Origin: Bradyrhizobium sp. 190
Lineage (GTDB): Bacteria; Pseudomonadota; Alphaproteobacteria; Rhizobiales; Xanthobacteraceae
DNA: 64,000 bases
Direction of reading: 5' to 3'
NCBI RefSeq assembly: GCF_023073415.1
Contig: NZ_JADPJL010000062.1
Coordinates: 248,001-312,000 of the forward strand
Both the position numbers and the translations under genes were made by a program. The notes beneath the pieces were generated by a model, which was given only the letters and a program-made list of their open reading frames with translations, was not told the DNA's origin and did not search any database. Position 1 is the first letter of the stretch; each line of letters starts with the position of its first letter. Positions 12,676 to 22,382 of this stretch are shown here, piece by piece.

Positions 12676-12812
12676 GGACCGCGACCGTACCCAACATTAA
12701 CCCTACCCTGAACAATCGCCGCCTTTGTTCCCGGTCTTCACCATGCTGCGCCGCATTTTCGCGATACCTATGAATTCGCGAATGCCAGAACTTGCATCGC
12801 GCGAGGGCCACC

Positions 12813-14183
12813 ATGGACATGAACCGCCGCCATCTCATTGGAGCGTCCGCCGCCGGTATGGCAGGCGCACTAGCGATGTTGCCGGAGCCGGCGCGCGCTG
12901 CGCCGCTGACCTCGGCGCTCGGACGCGACGTGACGCAGTATGGCGTGCGTCCCGGCAGCCCCGACGATCAAACTGCGAAACTGCAACGCGCCATCGACGA
13001 AGCCGCGCGCGCGCAGGTGCCGCTGGCGCTGCCGCCGGGCGTCTATCGCACGGGCATGCTGCGCCTTTCGAACGGCACGCAACTGGTCGGCGTGCGCGGC
13101 GCGACCAAGTTCGTATTCAATGGCGGCGCCTCGATGATCCAGAGCGAAGGCGCCGACAGTATCGGCCTGACCGGCATCACCTTCGACGGCGGCGGCATTC
13201 CGTTGCCGACGCGGCGCGGTCTCGTGCATTGCCTCGGCGGGCGCGACGTCCGCATCGCCGATTGTGAAATCATCGGCAGTGGTGGCAACGGCATCTGGCT
13301 GGAACAGGTTTCCGGCGACATCTCCGGCAACATCTTCAGGAAGATCGCGACAACAGCGGTCGTATCGTTCGACGCGTTGGGCCTGATCGTATCGCGCAAC
13401 ACCATCACCGATACCAACGATAATGGCATCGAGATCCTGCGCACGGCGATCGGTGACGACGGCACGCTGGTGATCGACAACCGCATCGAGGACATCAAGG
13501 CCGGCCCCGGCGGCTCCGGGCAATACGGCAACGCCATCAATGCTTTCCGCGCCGGCAACGTCATCGTGCGGGGCAATCGCATCAAAAATTGCGACTACTC
13601 CGCGGTGCGCGGCAATTCGGCATCCAATATCCACATCACGGACAACAGTGTCAGCAATGTCCGCGAGGTCGCGCTCTATTCGGAATTCGCGTTCGAAGGC
13701 GCCGTGATCGCCAACAACACGGTGGATGGCGCGGCCGTCGGCGTCTCCGTCTGCAATTTCAACGAAGGCGGACGCATCGCCGTCGTGCAGGGCAACATCG
13801 TCAGAAATCTGTTGCCGAAGCGGCCGATCGGCACCGCGCCGGACGACGACGCCGGGATCGGCATCTATGTCGAGGCGGATTCTTCCGTGACCGGCAACGT
13901 GATCGAGAACGCGCCCTCGTTCGGGATCATCGCCGGCTGGGGCAAATATCTCCGCGACGTCGCCATCACAGGCAATGTGATCCGCAACGCCTTCGTCGGC
14001 GTCGGCGTGTCGGTAATGCCCGGCGCCGGCACGGCGCTGGTCAACAACAACATGATCTCGGAAACCCCGCGCGGCGCCGTGGTCGGCCTCGACCATGCCC
14101 GCACCATTACGACCGATCTGTCAGCCGAAGGCGCCCAGCGCTACGCACAGGTGGTGGTCGGAGGCAACGCGGTGCGGCGCTAG
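12813..14183 (+). CDS. TIGR03808-like Tat-exported repetitive parallel beta-helix protein
   Basis: Predicted 456-residue secreted protein. It has a twin-arginine signal (NRRHLIGASAAGMAGAL, cleavage near ARA-AP). A pectate-lyase-like right-handed beta-helix follows: a PDDQTAKLQRAIDEA opening, then many short turns with the pattern hhhxxNxI (VIDNRIEDI, VIVRGNRIKN, IHITDNSVSN, VAITGNVIRN). This matches my memory of TIGR03808, a family nearly limited to Bradyrhizobium relatives. The ATG at 12813 has a GAGGG about six bases upstream; an ATG at 12819 is also possible. No catalytic residues could be assigned. The TIGR03809-type gene is tail-to-tail with it. Confidence 0.82.
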   Translation: MDMNRRHLIGASAAGMAGALAMLPEPARAAPLTSALGRDVTQYGVRPGSPDDQTAKLQRAIDEAARAQVPLALPPGVYRTGMLRLSNGTQLVGVRGATKFVFNGGASMIQSEGADSIGLTGITFDGGGIPLPTRRGLVHCLGGRDVRIADCEIIGSGGNGIWLEQVSGDISGNIFRKIATTAVVSFDALGLIVSRNTITDTNDNGIEILRTAIGDDGTLVIDNRIEDIKAGPGGSGQYGNAINAFRAGNVIVRGNRIKNCDYSAVRGNSASNIHITDNSVSNVREVALYSEFAFEGAVIANNTVDGAAVGVSVCNFNEGGRIAVVQGNIVRNLLPKRPIGTAPDDDAGIGIYVEADSSVTGNVIENAPSFGIIAGWGKYLRDVAITGNVIRNAFVGVGVSVMPGAGTALVNNNMISETPRGAVVGLDHARTITTDLSAEGAQRYAQVVVGGNAVRR

Positions 14184-15240: not shown

Positions 15241-16989
15241 TCACTGCGCAGCAGGCTGTTTCGCGGCGTTTGCGGCCGATTTGTCCGACGCCATCGATGG
15301 CGGGGAGTCATTCAGTGCCCGGCTCACGGAAGCGTTATCGGCAGACGGGTCAAGCGCCGGCGTTTTTTCTCCCGCAGGCTTGCCGGAAACCGAGGCAAGC
15401 GGAACTGCCGGCGCGGCGGTCGCCGCGGTGACCGCGGCAAAGGCGTCGGCCTGGCCTGCCCCGAACTGATCGTCGCGGCCGGGGGCGCCAAGATCGCGGG
15501 CGGTCTTCGCCAGGATCGCGCGAACATCGTTCGGCTTCAATGCAGGATTGCGCTCCAGCAACAGCGCCGCAACGCCGCTGACATAGGCGGCGGAAAACGA
15601 CGTGCCCGACGTGATCTGATATTTTTCATCCGGCGCCGGCAGGAAGATATCCGCGCCTGGAGCCGATATCGCGATGTGGTTGCCCCGGTTGGACGCCGCA
15701 AACAGCTTTTCCTGCGCGTCGGTTCCGCTCACTGCAATGACGTTCGGATTGGCGGCGGGATAGAGCGGCGGCGATTTCGCACCGGCATTGCCAGCCGCAG
15801 CCACCATCAGGATGCCACGGGCTGCGGTGGCGGCGATCCCCCGCTCGATCAACGGATCCTTCGGGCCGGCAAAGCTCATATTGATGATCTGCGCGCCATG
15901 CTCGGCCGCGTAGTTCAATCCCCTCAGGATCACATAGGACGTACTCTCCGCGCCCTTCGATCCCGCGCCGAATGCGCGGATCGCAAGCAACCTCGCCTCC
16001 GGCGCGCTACCCATCAGCCTGGCATGCGCGACGATCGCGCCGGCAATGCCGGTTCCGTGGACATGCGGACCTTCACTGCTGCCGAGCGCGTCGAAACTGT
16101 CGGCGACCGAATTGGCGAGCTCGGGATGTTTGACGTCGACACCTGAATCGATCACCGCGATGGTGACGTTCATGCCGCGGACGAGCGCGTGCGCCTGCGG
16201 CAGCCGGAGCTGGGCGACGGCGTATTGCGCGGAGTCACCCCCGATCGAGGGCTTCTTCTGGTCCTGCAGGAAGTAACGGAAATTGAGCTGCACCGAACGC
16301 ACGCTGCCGTCGGCCGCGAGCTCGCGGCGCACCGTGTCCACCGGCCGCCGGTCGACGATGCGGAACAGGCCGATGGTGCCGCCGAGCAGCGGGAAACTCT
16401 GCGATGAAATGCGCTCCAGGCCATGACGCCGCGCCAGCTCATCGGCCTCGGCTGTGGATAGCGCGCCGTCGATTTCGGCGACGAGCTCGTTCTGGACCAC
16501 GCGCGTATTGACCGCAGCCTGCACATTGTTATTGCGCGATCCGCCATTGCCCTTCCTGGCCGAGGTGCCGTTGCCGCCGCCCGCCGACATGACCGGACGA
16601 TCGAAGCATTCGCCGTCGGGACCGCGGAACGCATTCTGGCAAGCCGGATAGAGATTGGGCGAAAATCGCGCATGGGGAAGCGTCGACGGCACGCCGGCCC
16701 CCGGGCGGGTTCGCAGCGTCGAGCTCATGGTGCCGATCCGGGACGGCGGCGTCCGCGCCACTCGATCGGCGCTCACGCTCGGCCGGGCCGCGATACCGGG
16801 ATTGATCCGCGGCGTCACCGTTGGATTGATGGTAGGCGTCCGCACCCCGACATTGAGATTGGGTGTGCGCATGATGCTCTGCGCATGAACCGCCGAGGCT
16901 GCGAAAGCCATCAATGGCAGAAACGCCGCCGAAAAAACCAATGCCGCGCGGCGCGTCTTCATCAGCCAATTCGGGCCATCGTGAACCAT
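15241..16989 (-). CDS. Secreted subtilisin-like serine protease (S8 family)
   Basis: A 582-residue exported peptidase. After a signal peptide (about 10-37, ending VHAQS) comes a Thr/Pro/Asn/Arg-rich low-complexity stretch (40-110), a propeptide-like segment (about 162-242) and the catalytic domain (about 258-510). The catalytic triad is Asp281 (AVIDSGVD), His311 (HVHGTGIAGA) and Ser464 (GTSFSAAYVSG), with the oxyanion Asn401 (AAAGNAG). The C-terminus is Ala/Ser/Pro-rich. The ATG at 16989 has a nearby GAGG; an alternative ATG at 16962 would begin right at the signal peptide. It follows the anti-sigma gene by 36 bases, so it is likely its co-transcribed partner. Confidence 0.9.
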   Translation of the reverse strand: MVHDGPNWLMKTRRAALVFSAAFLPLMAFAASAVHAQSIMRTPNLNVGVRTPTINPTVTPRINPGIAARPSVSADRVARTPPSRIGTMSSTLRTRPGAGVPSTLPHARFSPNLYPACQNAFRGPDGECFDRPVMSAGGGNGTSARKGNGGSRNNNVQAAVNTRVVQNELVAEIDGALSTAEADELARRHGLERISSQSFPLLGGTIGLFRIVDRRPVDTVRRELAADGSVRSVQLNFRYFLQDQKKPSIGGDSAQYAVAQLRLPQAHALVRGMNVTIAVIDSGVDVKHPELANSVADSFDALGSSEGPHVHGTGIAGAIVAHARLMGSAPEARLLAIRAFGAGSKGAESTSYVILRGLNYAAEHGAQIINMSFAGPKDPLIERGIAATAARGILMVAAAGNAGAKSPPLYPAANPNVIAVSGTDAQEKLFAASNRGNHIAISAPGADIFLPAPDEKYQITSGTSFSAAYVSGVAALLLERNPALKPNDVRAILAKTARDLGAPGRDDQFGAGQADAFAAVTAATAAPAVPLASVSGKPAGEKTPALDPSADNASVSRALNDSPPSMASDKSAANAAKQPAAQ

Positions 16990-17025
16990 GGAACCTCGGC
17001 CTTCCCGGGGCGCCCCGACTGCCTC

Positions 17026-17739
17026 TTAGGGCGTTGCGACCGCGAGGCTGACGATCTTCTCGCGCTGCAGCCTGGCGAGCAGGCCGGCGGCTTCGTCCTT
17101 GCTCATCGCCTTGTTGCCGAACTGCAGCCGGAACATGCCGCCCTTGGCGCCGTCGACGATGGAAGCCTGGTAGTTGTCGAGCAACGCGGTGATGTCGGCG
17201 ATCCGGGCTTCCGGCGCAAACCGCACCAGCGCACGCGTCGGCGCGGCGCTGCCTGCGAGATCGCGCGTGATGGGCGCTGCCGACGGCTCGTTCAGGCTCA
17301 GCGAGGCGGTCTGGAACGAAGCGGTCTGGTTCTTCATCAGCACGGCGCCGATCACGCCGGCCTGCAACAGCAGCGCCACGGCGCCGAGGCTCGCCGACCA
17401 GGCCAGCGTACGCGGCGACAGCCTTGCGAAAAATTCCGATACCCGGGCGGACAGGCTCACCGAAGGCGATGGCTTGCGCACGGGCTCTCCGTCGATCGCG
17501 GCAAACAGCTTCGCCATGGCGCGCGCCGAAGGCGCACCCAGGCTCTCGTTGAGACCGATCGTCTCGGCATATTCCTCGCGGATGACGGCGTATTGCCGGG
17601 CCAACTCGGGATCGCTGGCGAGCGCATCCTCGACGCGGCGTGCATCGCGCGTGCTCAAGGTGCCGGCCGCGTGGAACGGCAACAGCATCTCGATTTCGCT
17701 GGGCTCTTGATCCAGCATTTTTTTGCTCGCCGCCATCAT
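17026..17739 (-). CDS. Membrane anti-sigma factor with a propeptide-like periplasmic domain
   Basis: A 237-residue single-pass protein. Residues 10-85 form a helical anti-sigma domain (EIEMLLPFHAAGTLSTRDARRVEDALASDPEL) that should bind the sigma factor encoded just upstream. One membrane segment lies at about 112-134. Residues 168-237 form a periplasmic domain (ALVRFAPEARIADITALL, GGMFRLQFG, LLARLQREKIVSLAV) with a strand-helix-strand-helix-strand order like subtilase propeptides. The start is the ATG overlapping the sigma stop (ATGA); a longer frame to 17925 lies inside the sigma gene. Typical zinc-binding HxxxCxxC is absent. The pairing is inferred from gene order. Confidence 0.82.
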   Translation of the reverse strand: MMAASKKMLDQEPSEIEMLLPFHAAGTLSTRDARRVEDALASDPELARQYAVIREEYAETIGLNESLGAPSARAMAKLFAAIDGEPVRKPSPSVSLSARVSEFFARLSPRTLAWSASLGAVALLLQAGVIGAVLMKNQTASFQTASLSLNEPSAAPITRDLAGSAAPTRALVRFAPEARIADITALLDNYQASIVDGAKGGMFRLQFGNKAMSKDEAAGLLARLQREKIVSLAVATP

Positions 17740-18305
17740 GGCCAACCTCGCTCTATGCCGGCTGCCTTCAGCAACTCGGCCAATTTCTTGCGCGCATAAA
17801 ACAGGCGCGTCTTGACGGTGTTCTCCGGAATACCGACGATTTCGGCCACCTCTTCCACGGACTTCTCGTGGTAGTAGACGAGATCGACGATCTCCCGATG
17901 CTCTGGCGAAAGCGCCGTCAGGCACTTGCGCAACGCTTCACCCGTATCCTTCTTCTGCACCACCACTTCCGGATCGTCGGACGTGTCCTCGATCGCGTTC
18001 GCGGTCTCGTCATCCAGTCCGACGTCCTTGCGGCGCCGAAGTGCCGAAAGGGCCTTGAACCGCGTGATCGCCAGGAGCCAGGTGGTAACGGCGGATCGGC
18101 CTTCGAACTTGCCGGCCTGACGCCACACATCGAGGAAAACCTCGCTAATGAGATCTTCCGCAATCTGCTCGTCCCTTACGAGCCGAAGCCCGAAACGGAA
18201 CACCCGGACATGGTGCCTTCCGTAAAGCACCTGCATGGCGAGCCGGTCGCCTTGAGCGATCCGAGCGATCAGAATTTCGTCTGAAGCCGCCTGTGACGCG
18301 TTCAA
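17736..18305 (-). CDS. ECF-type RNA polymerase sigma factor
   Basis: A 189-residue group IV sigma factor. Region 2 (about 25-95) contains DEQIAEDLISEVFLDVWRQ and WLLAITRFKALSALRRR. Region 4 (about 125-180) contains LSPEHREIVDLVYYHEKSVEEVAEIVGIPENTVKTRLFYARKKL, a clear helix-turn-helix for -35 recognition. No sigma 1.1 or region 3 is present. It overlaps its anti-sigma gene by four bases. A 9-bp inverted repeat about 46-70 bases upstream may take part in its control. Confidence 0.93.
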   Translation of the reverse strand: MNASQAASDEILIARIAQGDRLAMQVLYGRHHVRVFRFGLRLVRDEQIAEDLISEVFLDVWRQAGKFEGRSAVTTWLLAITRFKALSALRRRKDVGLDDETANAIEDTSDDPEVVVQKKDTGEALRKCLTALSPEHREIVDLVYYHEKSVEEVAEIVGIPENTVKTRLFYARKKLAELLKAAGIERGWP

Positions 18306-21159: not shown

Positions 21160-21798
21160 CTAGTACTTCAGCAGCTTCGCTCCGGCGAGCGCGCCGATCG
21201 CCGTCACCAGCGCGGTCGCGATCGTGTACCAGGCCGCCACGAACAGCGGTGAATCGTCCGTGCAATGCGAGGCGTAGAGCGTCGCCGCCAATCCCGCCGA
21301 CAACAGTCCCGCGATGGCGCCGGCGACCGCCGGCCGCGCCGGCGCGCCGTGGCGCAGGCCGATCAGCGCACCAGCCAGCAGCGGCAGCGACATCAGCGGG
21401 ATCGCCGTCAGGCACATCCACGAATTCTTGCCGACCAGCCGCGTCATCATCGGAAGCCGCTGCGGCATCATCATCTCGCCACCGATCGCCGCGCTCAAAA
21501 TCCCCACCGGCGCCAGCAGCAGCCAGCCAAATCCGCGCAGCGACGCCTCGGGCCGCGACAAATGCAGGCTGACGGCAATTGCCGCGATCGCCAGCGCCAG
21601 CGTCACAGCGAATTTCAGGTCGAAGAACGGGTTGCGCATCGCAACCATCACGTCGGGCCTGATGCCGAGTTCGGTAAAGAACATCAGGAGCGAGACCGGC
21701 GCCGCGGCCAAAAGCGCCAGCATCAGCGAAAAGCCGACGGGCCGCGCCCGGTGCGCATTGTCGGCAGCCAGCGTTCGAATGAGCTGATCGGTATCCAT
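21160..21798 (-). CDS. nrsF: NrsF-like membrane anti-sigma factor (DUF1109)
   Basis: A 212-residue integral membrane protein with about six segments (roughly 22-42, 62-80, 88-105, 126-146, 155-175, 185-207). Two cysteines, Cys129 (SWMCLTAIPL) and Cys179 (SHCTDDSP), sit where Caulobacter NrsF has its functionally important pair. NrsF sequesters sigma SigF and releases it on chromate, cadmium or similar stress; that role is transferred from Caulobacter. The start at 21798 lies two bases after the sigma stop, so the two are one operon. A long frame extending to 22326 is a shadow of the sigma gene. Confidence 0.85.
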   Translation of the reverse strand: MDTDQLIRTLAADNAHRARPVGFSLMLALLAAAPVSLLMFFTELGIRPDVMVAMRNPFFDLKFAVTLALAIAAIAVSLHLSRPEASLRGFGWLLLAPVGILSAAIGGEMMMPQRLPMMTRLVGKNSWMCLTAIPLMSLPLLAGALIGLRHGAPARPAVAGAIAGLLSAGLAATLYASHCTDDSPLFVAAWYTIATALVTAIGALAGAKLLKY

Positions 21799-21800
21799 TC

Positions 21801-22382
21801 TCACTGTTCCCGTAGCTTCGCGGTCAGGCTGGCCAGCCCCCGGTGCAGCGCCACCCGCACCGCCCCCTCGCTCATCGAAAATTTCGTGGCCGTATCCTTG
21901 ATCGAGGCGCTGTCGACCGCGATCGACTGCAAGACGTCGCGCTGCCGCGCTGGCAGCGTCTGAAGCTGGGCGGCAACCTCGCTCGCCGACGCCGTCTCGG
22001 CCGGCGCCTCGCCCGGCAGCGTCTCGGCGAAATCGTCGATATCGACGAAAATGCGCCGGCCGCGGCGGCGCAACGCATCGATCAGCTTGTTGCGGGCGAT
22101 CGCAAACAGCCATGGGGCAAACGGGGCGGTGACGTCCCAGGTGTGCCGCTTCAGATGGACCGCCAGCAAGATGTCCTGCACGATGTCCTCGGATTGATCG
22201 ACCGGTTGCCCTGCCCGAGCCAGCCCACGGCGCGCCGCGGCCCGGAGCACCGGCGTGACGGCCTTGAGCAGGCGGTGATACGCCGCACTGTCGCCTGCAA
22301 TGGCCGACCGCATCAGGCCGGTCCATTCGTCATCCCGTTCGCGCAAGAGCGCTCCTACCCTGCAATTCGGTCGATCTTTCAA
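21801..22382 (-). CDS. sigF: ECF sigma factor, SigF-like
   Basis: A 193-residue ECF sigma factor. Region 2 includes DQSEDIVQDILLAVHLKRHTWDVTAPFAPWLFAIARNKLIDALRRRGRR. Region 4 includes LPARQRDVLQSIAVDSASIKDTATKFSMSEGAVRVALHRGLASL. Pairing with a DUF1109/NrsF gene directly downstream points to the SigF class known from Caulobacter oxidative and heavy-metal stress responses. A perfect 6-2-6 palindrome lies about 25 bases upstream of the ATG. Confidence 0.9.
   Translation of the reverse strand: MKDRPNCRVGALLRERDDEWTGLMRSAIAGDSAAYHRLLKAVTPVLRAAARRGLARAGQPVDQSEDIVQDILLAVHLKRHTWDVTAPFAPWLFAIARNKLIDALRRRGRRIFVDIDDFAETLPGEAPAETASASEVAAQLQTLPARQRDVLQSIAVDSASIKDTATKFSMSEGAVRVALHRGLASLTAKLREQ

Follow-up and report, generated by a model that had tools for sequence, protein, structure and literature searches.

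An ECF sigma factor operon of Bradyrhizobium sp. 190 encoding an anti-sigma factor with a tail predicted to be homologous to subtilase prodomains

Overview

The stretch analysed here (hereafter, the window) comprises 64,000 nucleotides of Bradyrhizobium sp. 190 (contig NZ_JADPJL010000062.1, positions 248,001 to 312,000), and the subject of this work is an operon within it that encodes an extracytoplasmic function (ECF) sigma factor, a one-pass membrane anti-sigma factor and an exported subtilase of family S8. Computational analysis established the genes, the homology of the periplasmic tail of the anti-sigma factor to subtilase prodomains, the fold of that tail, the conservation of the operon and a promoter site upstream of the sigma gene. 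The reading that we favour, with a probability of roughly 0.45, is that of a self-regulated sigma module built around the subtilase, in which the tail would serve as a docking domain for the mature protease and the latter would cut the anti-sigma factor near the membrane. The locus lies within an 8.6-Mb genome, and the closest named relatives of the protease are found in Bradyrhizobium (up to 92% identity).

Homology of the anti-sigma tail to subtilase prodomains

Pairwise BLASTP comparison of the tail with the protease gave no useful match. At the level of hidden Markov models (HMMs), an hhalign comparison of 60 tails with 49 prodomains yielded a probability of 62.6 over 62 columns, and a comparison of 109 tails with 90 prodomains yielded a probability of 89.9 (score 34.2) over 63 columns, end to end. 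All of the 200 column-shuffled controls scored lower (maximum 21.6), the reversed profiles reached 15.5 and 14.3, and windows of the protease outside the prodomain scored at most 18.1 against the tail profile. The HMM-HMM alignment pairs ALVRF with ELVAEI, ADITALLDNY with AEADELARRHG, GMFRLQF with GLFRIV and LLARLQREK with VRRELAADG, followed by a closing strand, and thereby reproduces the residue register drawn in a first-pass annotation of the same DNA.

Searches against Pfam detected the Fervidolysin_NPro-like family PF22148 in 9 of the 59 tails at E ≤ 0.1 (best E-value, 1.4e-6), while the next-best Pfam family matched 2 of the 59; at the same threshold, PF22148 was also found in 30 of 48 partner proteases. 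Among nine distant anti-sigma factors scanned, one (L093) scored 25.8 against a cut-off of 21, another (L099) fell just below it with 20.6, and the other seven gave no PF22148 match. The tail profile, in turn, also found an unrelated subtilase (L291; E-value, 3.2e-6), matching its prodomain. Weaker matches of this profile include chance ones; near an E-value of 1e-4, it hit L305–L307, which we take to be serine hydroxymethyltransferase-like proteins, and three further enzymes (L103–L105) in the class-level search. A search of the PDB sequences with the tail profile returned two poor matches and no propeptide.

Homology of the tail to subtilase prodomains is thus supported by the Pfam matches, the HMM-HMM comparison, the predicted fold and the conservation of the operon, and the resemblance between tail and propeptide reported in the first-pass annotation is borne out as homology. 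It is the profiles that carry the claim of kinship; the fold agrees with it without proving it.

Predicted fold of the tail

AlphaFold modelling based on 43 tails (predicted local distance difference test (pLDDT), 91.4; predicted template modelling score, 0.77) placed strands at residues 2–8, 26–33, 36–41 and 64–70 and helices at residues 14–23 and 48–59 of the tail, i.e., the tail is predicted to adopt a beta-alpha-beta-beta-alpha-beta fold with four strands. The prodomain of the protease was modelled with pLDDT of about 97–98 over most of its length, in a joined model in which the tail and the protease were read as one chain through the stop codon of the anti-sigma gene; in the numbering of this model, its strands span residues 248–257, 275–283, 288–295 and 314–325, and its helices residues 263–272 and 301–309. 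Structure prediction therefore gives both domains one and the same fold, as the earlier annotation had anticipated. The strand-helix-strand-helix-strand order proposed there lists three strands; the fold has four.

Structurally, the modelled tail comes closest to PC1/3 prodomains, with Z of 8.9 and 8.3; the former value is that of 9fic, with a root-mean-square deviation (rmsd) of 2.6 over 69 residues. The prosegment of subtilisin BPN' (1spb_P) superposes with Z 6.8 and rmsd 2.6 over 62 residues, and subtilisin propeptides and the inhibitor POIA1 are found among the best 50 matches with Z of 6.5–7.1.

The protease, its own prodomain and the end of the tail

The protease consists of a signal-like start, a long linker modelled with low confidence, a prodomain and an intact catalytic domain, in which the three catalytic residues and the oxyanion Asn (Table 1) are all present. 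Residues 250–603 of the model superpose on residues 7–363 of pro-subtilisin E (3whi_B) with Z 45.3 and rmsd 2.5 over 332 aligned residues. Across pro-subtilisin E and pro-Tk-subtilisin, the prodomain and the catalytic domain together give Z of 44.5–45.3 and rmsd of 2.2–2.5 over 328–333 residues, and Foldseek agrees. With its catalytic residues in place and its prodomain docked in the model, the protein is predicted to be an S8 subtilase with a canonical inhibitory prodomain, which in cis fills the propeptide site of the enzyme. In the joined-chain model, this site was taken by the protease's own prodomain and the position of the tail is unreported; hence, that model has no bearing on docking of the tail.

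The last C-terminal residues of a subtilase propeptide occupy the active site of the protease. The tail aligns to residues 7–72 of the 77-residue BPN' prosegment and to residues 2–71 of POIA1 (target length 76) and, judging from these residue numbers, stops about five residues before the propeptide end that enters the active site. This end point is fixed in the family, as 86 of the 109 tails have exactly seven residues after a conserved Val, 93 have six or seven, and 6 tails are at least five residues longer than that of the window. The tail thus does not have the active-site-occupying C-terminal residues of a POIA1-like inhibitor. It also differs in position from PF22148 prodomains, which lie N-terminal to S8 in the same protein: the tail forms the C-terminus of the anti-sigma factor, and S8 is encoded by a separate gene. 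According to the title of PDB entry 3a3o, the Tk-propeptide still forms a complex when its five C-terminal residues are missing.

Distribution of the operon

The anti-sigma factor is present in 96 of the 149 genomes of the window's family. A cognate S8 (E ≤ 1e-45) accompanies it in 76 genomes, whereas 20 genomes contain the anti-sigma factor only, 2 contain the S8 only, and 51 contain neither; of the two S8-only genomes, one is 66% complete and the other has a weak, catalytic-only match. Among 81 family loci (the window and 80 others), 80 have the tail and 55 have the sigma factor, anti-sigma factor, tail and prodomain-bearing S8 together, two of the non-complete loci ending soon after the anti-sigma gene (L071, L221). 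When 80 named S8 loci were inspected, a tail-bearing anti-sigma factor was found near 42 of the 46 S8 genes with this prodomain type (the exceptions being L147, L152, L156 and L158) and near none of the 34 without it. At the phylum level, 40 of 398 genomes gave a tail match. Of these, 29 lie outside the family, and in 21 of the 29 a sigma factor and an S8 are encoded beside the match; of the remaining eight matches, one is to a subtilase itself, three are due to chance, and four lie in loci without S8 in the stretch read. Gene order varies in places, with S8 located upstream of the sigma gene in three loci (L151, L208, L302) and the anti-sigma gene on the opposite strand in L198 and L300.

Several variants of these genes were also observed. 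At L060 (G043), the S8 gene that adjoins the anti-sigma gene is in pieces while the tail and the juxtamembrane motif described below are intact, which is probably a recent loss. The same module of prodomain plus S8 forms the C-terminus of frames of 1283–2303 residues in 17 family genomes (L211, L212, L239–L253); L211, the only one of them scanned by Pfam, encodes a single protein with a TPS secretion domain, a GLUG motif, Peptidase_S8 and a PF22148 match that exceeds its cut-off (22.0 bits). Paired frames with a tail match and no S8 in the stretch read occur in L293 (8.6 kb; same strand) and L210 (divergent). In the distant partner proteases of L195, L196, L199, L203 and L205, the catalytic domain is preceded by an N-terminal region in which a Cys motif, identified by eye, recurs; the prodomain profile does not match these five proteins.

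The juxtamembrane motif

Among the kin of the window, many anti-sigma factors have the motif [YF]xTAS about seven residues past the hydrophobic stretch. A wider pattern, [YFW]xT[ALFV][STGA], was counted in the first 26 residues after that stretch and occurs in 42 of 80 family proteins, 35 of 36 named relatives and 12 of 33 remote ones (shuffled means 1.4, 0.7 and 0.4, respectively), where the family and named-relative sets share close relatives, only identical linkers having been taken out. The narrower form, [FY]xTAS, is present in 34 of 55 loci that carry the S8 alongside the anti-sigma gene and in 1 of 16 without a cognate S8 found; L090, which has no tail, was excluded from these counts. 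At 70–80% identity of the cytoplasmic part, identity of the motif is 0.73 between S8-bearing loci (166 pairs) versus 0.41 between S8-less and S8-bearing ones (35 pairs). A change of motif with S8 loss was seen in four genera (g26, g6, g40 and g28), with one exception in g28 (L216). The S8-less tails are visibly more diverged in g40, and not clearly so elsewhere. This suggests that the protease is tracked more closely by the motif than by the tail, which we regard as a lead obtained from counts uncorrected for ancestry.

Promoter and putative regulon

All of the 31 regions compared, one from the window and 30 from named relatives that are mostly kin of Bradyrhizobium, have the pattern GAACC-N17-GAC[CT] upstream of the sigma gene; shuffled sequences gave a mean of 0.09 and a maximum of 2. 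Because this conserved ECF-type promoter site precedes the sigma gene, the operon is probably controlled by its own sigma factor. The first-pass annotation asked whether the sigma targets include the operon; the conserved site supports such autoregulation as probable. A scan of the window's own genome with TYGAACC-N17-GACCAA gave five exact matches versus one for the reversed pattern. The site was absent from 23 S8 genes (TPS fusions and other unlinked copies) when the strict pattern was sought from −400 to +450 bases around the opening of the frame. One other match in the genome (L234) precedes the gene of a protein that, by its sequence, is presumably caspase-like and may be a member of the regulon.

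Proposed mechanism and its alternatives

According to the favoured reading, the subtilase would be exported, process itself and shed its own prodomain, exposing the propeptide-binding surface. The anti-sigma tail, as a propeptide without its active-site-plugging final residues, could then dock on that surface and position the open active site near [YF]xTAS, where the protease would cut the anti-sigma factor (site-1 cleavage). Ordinary intramembrane proteolysis would follow, the sigma factor would be freed, and the operon would be transcribed again. Here we infer that the two partners share a compartment after export, that they bind, and that cleavage, sigma release and feedback ensue. The tail would in this manner report free, mature protease and, as long as it is uncut, would hold some of the protease at the membrane. 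Docking is likelier than inhibition at the active site because the tail is clipped about five residues short. By extension, widespread systems might gauge the maturation of exported proteases with a clipped propeptide relative as bait, such that only a protease without its cis propeptide docks, cuts and activates its own sigma factor; this generalisation seems to us somewhat unlikely.

A number of observations weigh against the docking model. No PF22148 match was obtained with the window's own tail or own prodomain, or anywhere in its genome at E ≤ 0.001; since the tail and prodomain are without such a match, the link between them in the window itself rests on the family. The Foldseek search with the tail model found no match at E ≤ 0.001, and the same listing that contains the prodomains also includes, at Z 8.1, a small-subunit protein of the mitoribosome, together with Lrp-type regulators (Z up to 7.8) and NikR (Z up to 7.4), all of which share the common ferredoxin-like fold, so that the modelled structure alone cannot tell a prodomain from other folds of this kind. 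Where the genome lacks a cognate S8, the tail is nonetheless retained in all of the 16 loci read, which speaks against an obligate pair (these 16 come from the 20 anti-sigma-only genomes, with G007, G029, G076 and G148 left out, and include the incomplete or fragmented assemblies G099, G117 and G132). In 3 of 14 such genomes (G129, G043 and the fragmented G132; G099 and G117 were left out of this search), S8 of any kind is absent at E ≤ 1e-8; therefore, the tail has another use or another partner there, or is on its way out. At the matched divergence of 70–80%, tail identity is 0.54 between S8-bearing pairs versus 0.52 between S8-less and S8-bearing ones, i.e., the tail is not relaxed upon S8 loss. 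Genus g9 shows no change of motif with S8 loss, and the motif contrast also fails where the S8 lies elsewhere in the genome (1 of 9 loci with [FY]xTAS).

The remaining point against it comes from a test of co-evolution. With 101 of 104 triads, the correlation of evolutionary distances gave a partial r of 0.51 for the tail and the catalytic domain versus 0.09 for the tail and its own cytoplasmic part. The former value falls to 0.18 when an unrelated exported protein, the TAT-translocated protein encoded nearby, serves as control (45 family loci), versus 0.16 for the tail and the TAT-translocated protein, and in 19 thinned loci the two values are 0.09 and 0.08. Tail-prodomain correlations of 0.30 and 0.35 are inside the range of no-contact pairs (catalytic domain and TAT-translocated protein, 0.39 and 0.34). 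Co-evolution was consequently dropped as support for the pairing of tail and protease, having failed the exported-protein control.

Of the alternatives, the one that fares best is that the tail is of prodomain descent but today serves another signal or another site-1 protease, as a sensor or as a protease-protection domain, the S8 being merely a target gene of the sigma factor. Its retention in lineages that lost S8, no less conserved at matched divergence, and the outcome of the exported-protein control agree with this possibility. It is made rather unlikely by the conservation of the triad across Pseudomonadota-level samples, by the near absence of S8 without the anti-sigma factor, and by the change of the juxtamembrane motif upon S8 loss in four genera.

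A less probable explanation is that the tail is a stand-alone inhibitor of the propeptide type, which would curb envelope proteolysis and anchor the enzyme, while titration or cleavage of the tail by substrates or stress would free the sigma factor and lead to more protease being made. The tail shares its fold with POIA1, the structure of which was solved with subtilisin BPN', and PMC10580911 reports that a subtilase can be inhibited in trans by its cognate propeptide. The early end of the tail, which few family members extend, and the presence of a canonical cis prodomain in the protease both argue against this, and we consider it unlikely. The same bears on the original proposal of the first-pass annotation, in which propeptide- or inhibitor-like binding of the tail to the protease may link protease activity to sigma release: it is plausible in outline, but the own prodomain holds the site, the tail is about five residues short, and it is kept without a cognate protease.

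That the likeness reflects a shared ferredoxin-like fold only, with neither common ancestry nor a functional link, is already disfavoured and very improbable: the fold is very common, unrelated families score similarly in structure, and the weak profile matches include chance ones (presumably serine hydroxymethyltransferase-like), but PF22148 is the sole Pfam family that repeatedly matches the tails and also recurs in the neighbouring proteases, the profile-profile score exceeds all controls, and the genes are linked in an operon.

Relation to known systems

To our knowledge, the site-1 protease and the signal of many ECF systems are unknown. The present operon offers a candidate for the protease, one for a docking domain, which is homologous to the regulator carried by that protease itself, and one for the cut site. 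If the docking model is true, propeptides would be readable signals too, beyond their roles as chaperones and inhibitors, and a set of anti-sigma factors across Pseudomonadota would gain a predicted input.

RseA, with DegS, exemplifies an anti-sigma factor under regulated intramembrane proteolysis (RIP). The present system resembles RIP-controlled anti-sigma factors (RseA/DegS, RsiV, RsiP) in having a membrane anti-sigma factor beside an ECF sigma factor, with the periplasmic domain as the likely sensor; it differs in that the sensor would be homologous to a protease propeptide and in that the operon itself supplies the candidate site-1 protease. The one sequence feature here that may point to site-1 and site-2 cleavage is the conserved juxtamembrane motif. 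The tail is like PF22148 and the classical subtilisin propeptides in sequence profile and in its beta-alpha-beta-beta-alpha-beta fold. POIA1 (PDB 1v5i) likewise has a propeptide fold encoded apart from the protease, and the tail superposes on 1v5i_B with Z 6.6 and rmsd 3.0 over 62 residues; POIA1, however, is a free subtilisin inhibitor, whereas the tail belongs to a signalling protein and, by residue numbers, falls about five residues short of POIA1 at its C-terminal end. ECF groups with subtilases in their genetic context have been reported, namely ECF54 (PMC8999054); there too, a subtilase gene lies near the ECF sigma gene, and the difference here is an anti-sigma factor with a propeptide-like tail. 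Searches of an open-access library, which lacks most subscription papers, turned up no anti-sigma factor described as carrying a propeptide-like domain. Propeptide-type inhibitors and one-pass anti-sigma factors are each known, and their joining was not found in the literature searched.

Features of the operon and neighbouring genes

The three tightly arranged genes are those recognised in the first-pass annotation, correctly placed and all on the minus strand (Table 1). The sigma factor matches NF009168/PRK12515 with 347 bits (cut-off 236) and Sigma70_r2 and Sigma70_r4_2 above their cut-offs; in relatives, the start codon at the same position is TTG, GTG or ATG. The anti-sigma gene overlaps the sigma gene by 4 bases. 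Residues 1–110 of its product are the presumed cytoplasmic, sigma-binding part, in which zf-HC2 scores 17.0 bits, below the cut-off of 22.2; among nine scanned relatives, one exceeds this cut-off (L098, 29.6 bits). The match to NCBIfam antisigma is likewise below its cut-off (34.7 versus 100 bits). The protein has one hydrophobic segment, and residues 137–169 form a linker that varies in length among relatives. In terms of sequence, the two proteins have the attributes of an ECF sigma/one-pass anti-sigma pair: sigma regions 2 and 4, an adjacent anti-sigma factor, a zf-HC2-like part and a single hydrophobic segment. The protease frame opens 12 codons past the anti-sigma stop, and both genes share one reading frame across it; the N-terminus of the protease is hydrophobic and signal-like, and the signal peptide probably starts at Met10 (window position 16962).

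Table 1. Positions of the operon, its genes and their predicted elements in the window
Feature	Position	Strand	Details
Sigma/one-pass anti-sigma/exported subtilase (S8) operon	15241–18305	−	Reading order 18305 to 15241
ECF sigma factor, 189 aa, TTG start	17736–18305	−	Sigma70_r2 and r4_2; NCBIfam NF009168/PRK12515
Single-pass anti-sigma factor, 237 aa	17026–17739	−	Weak zf-HC2, NCBIfam antisigma
S8 subtilase, 582 aa, predicted export	15241–16989	−	Peptidase_S8, 159 bits; Asp281, His311, Asn401 and Ser464 motifs
ECF-type promoter-like site TCGAACC-N17-GACCAA	18322–18351	−	16 bases before the sigma start codon
Anti-sigma transmembrane segment, residues 111–136	17332–17409	−	Hydropathy maximum 2.09 at residues 117–135
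Juxtamembrane motif FQTAS, residues 142–146	17302–17316	−	Candidate cleavage or recognition site
Anti-sigma C-terminal periplasmic domain, residues 170–237	17029–17232	−	Predicted homologue of subtilase prodomains; HMM-HMM, AlphaFold, PF22148 in relatives
Own prodomain of the protease, residues 168–240	16270–16488	−	pLDDT ~97–98; beta-alpha-beta-beta-alpha-beta

Two further features were observed in the vicinity of the operon. About 3 kb away, at window positions 21160–22382 on the minus strand, lie the genes of a second ECF sigma factor and of its NrsF-type anti-sigma factor (PF06532, 186 bits). On the plus strand, positions 12792–14183 encode a TAT-translocated repetitive beta-helix protein (TIGR03808, 876 bits), a homologue of which is present in 52 of the 161 loci searched.

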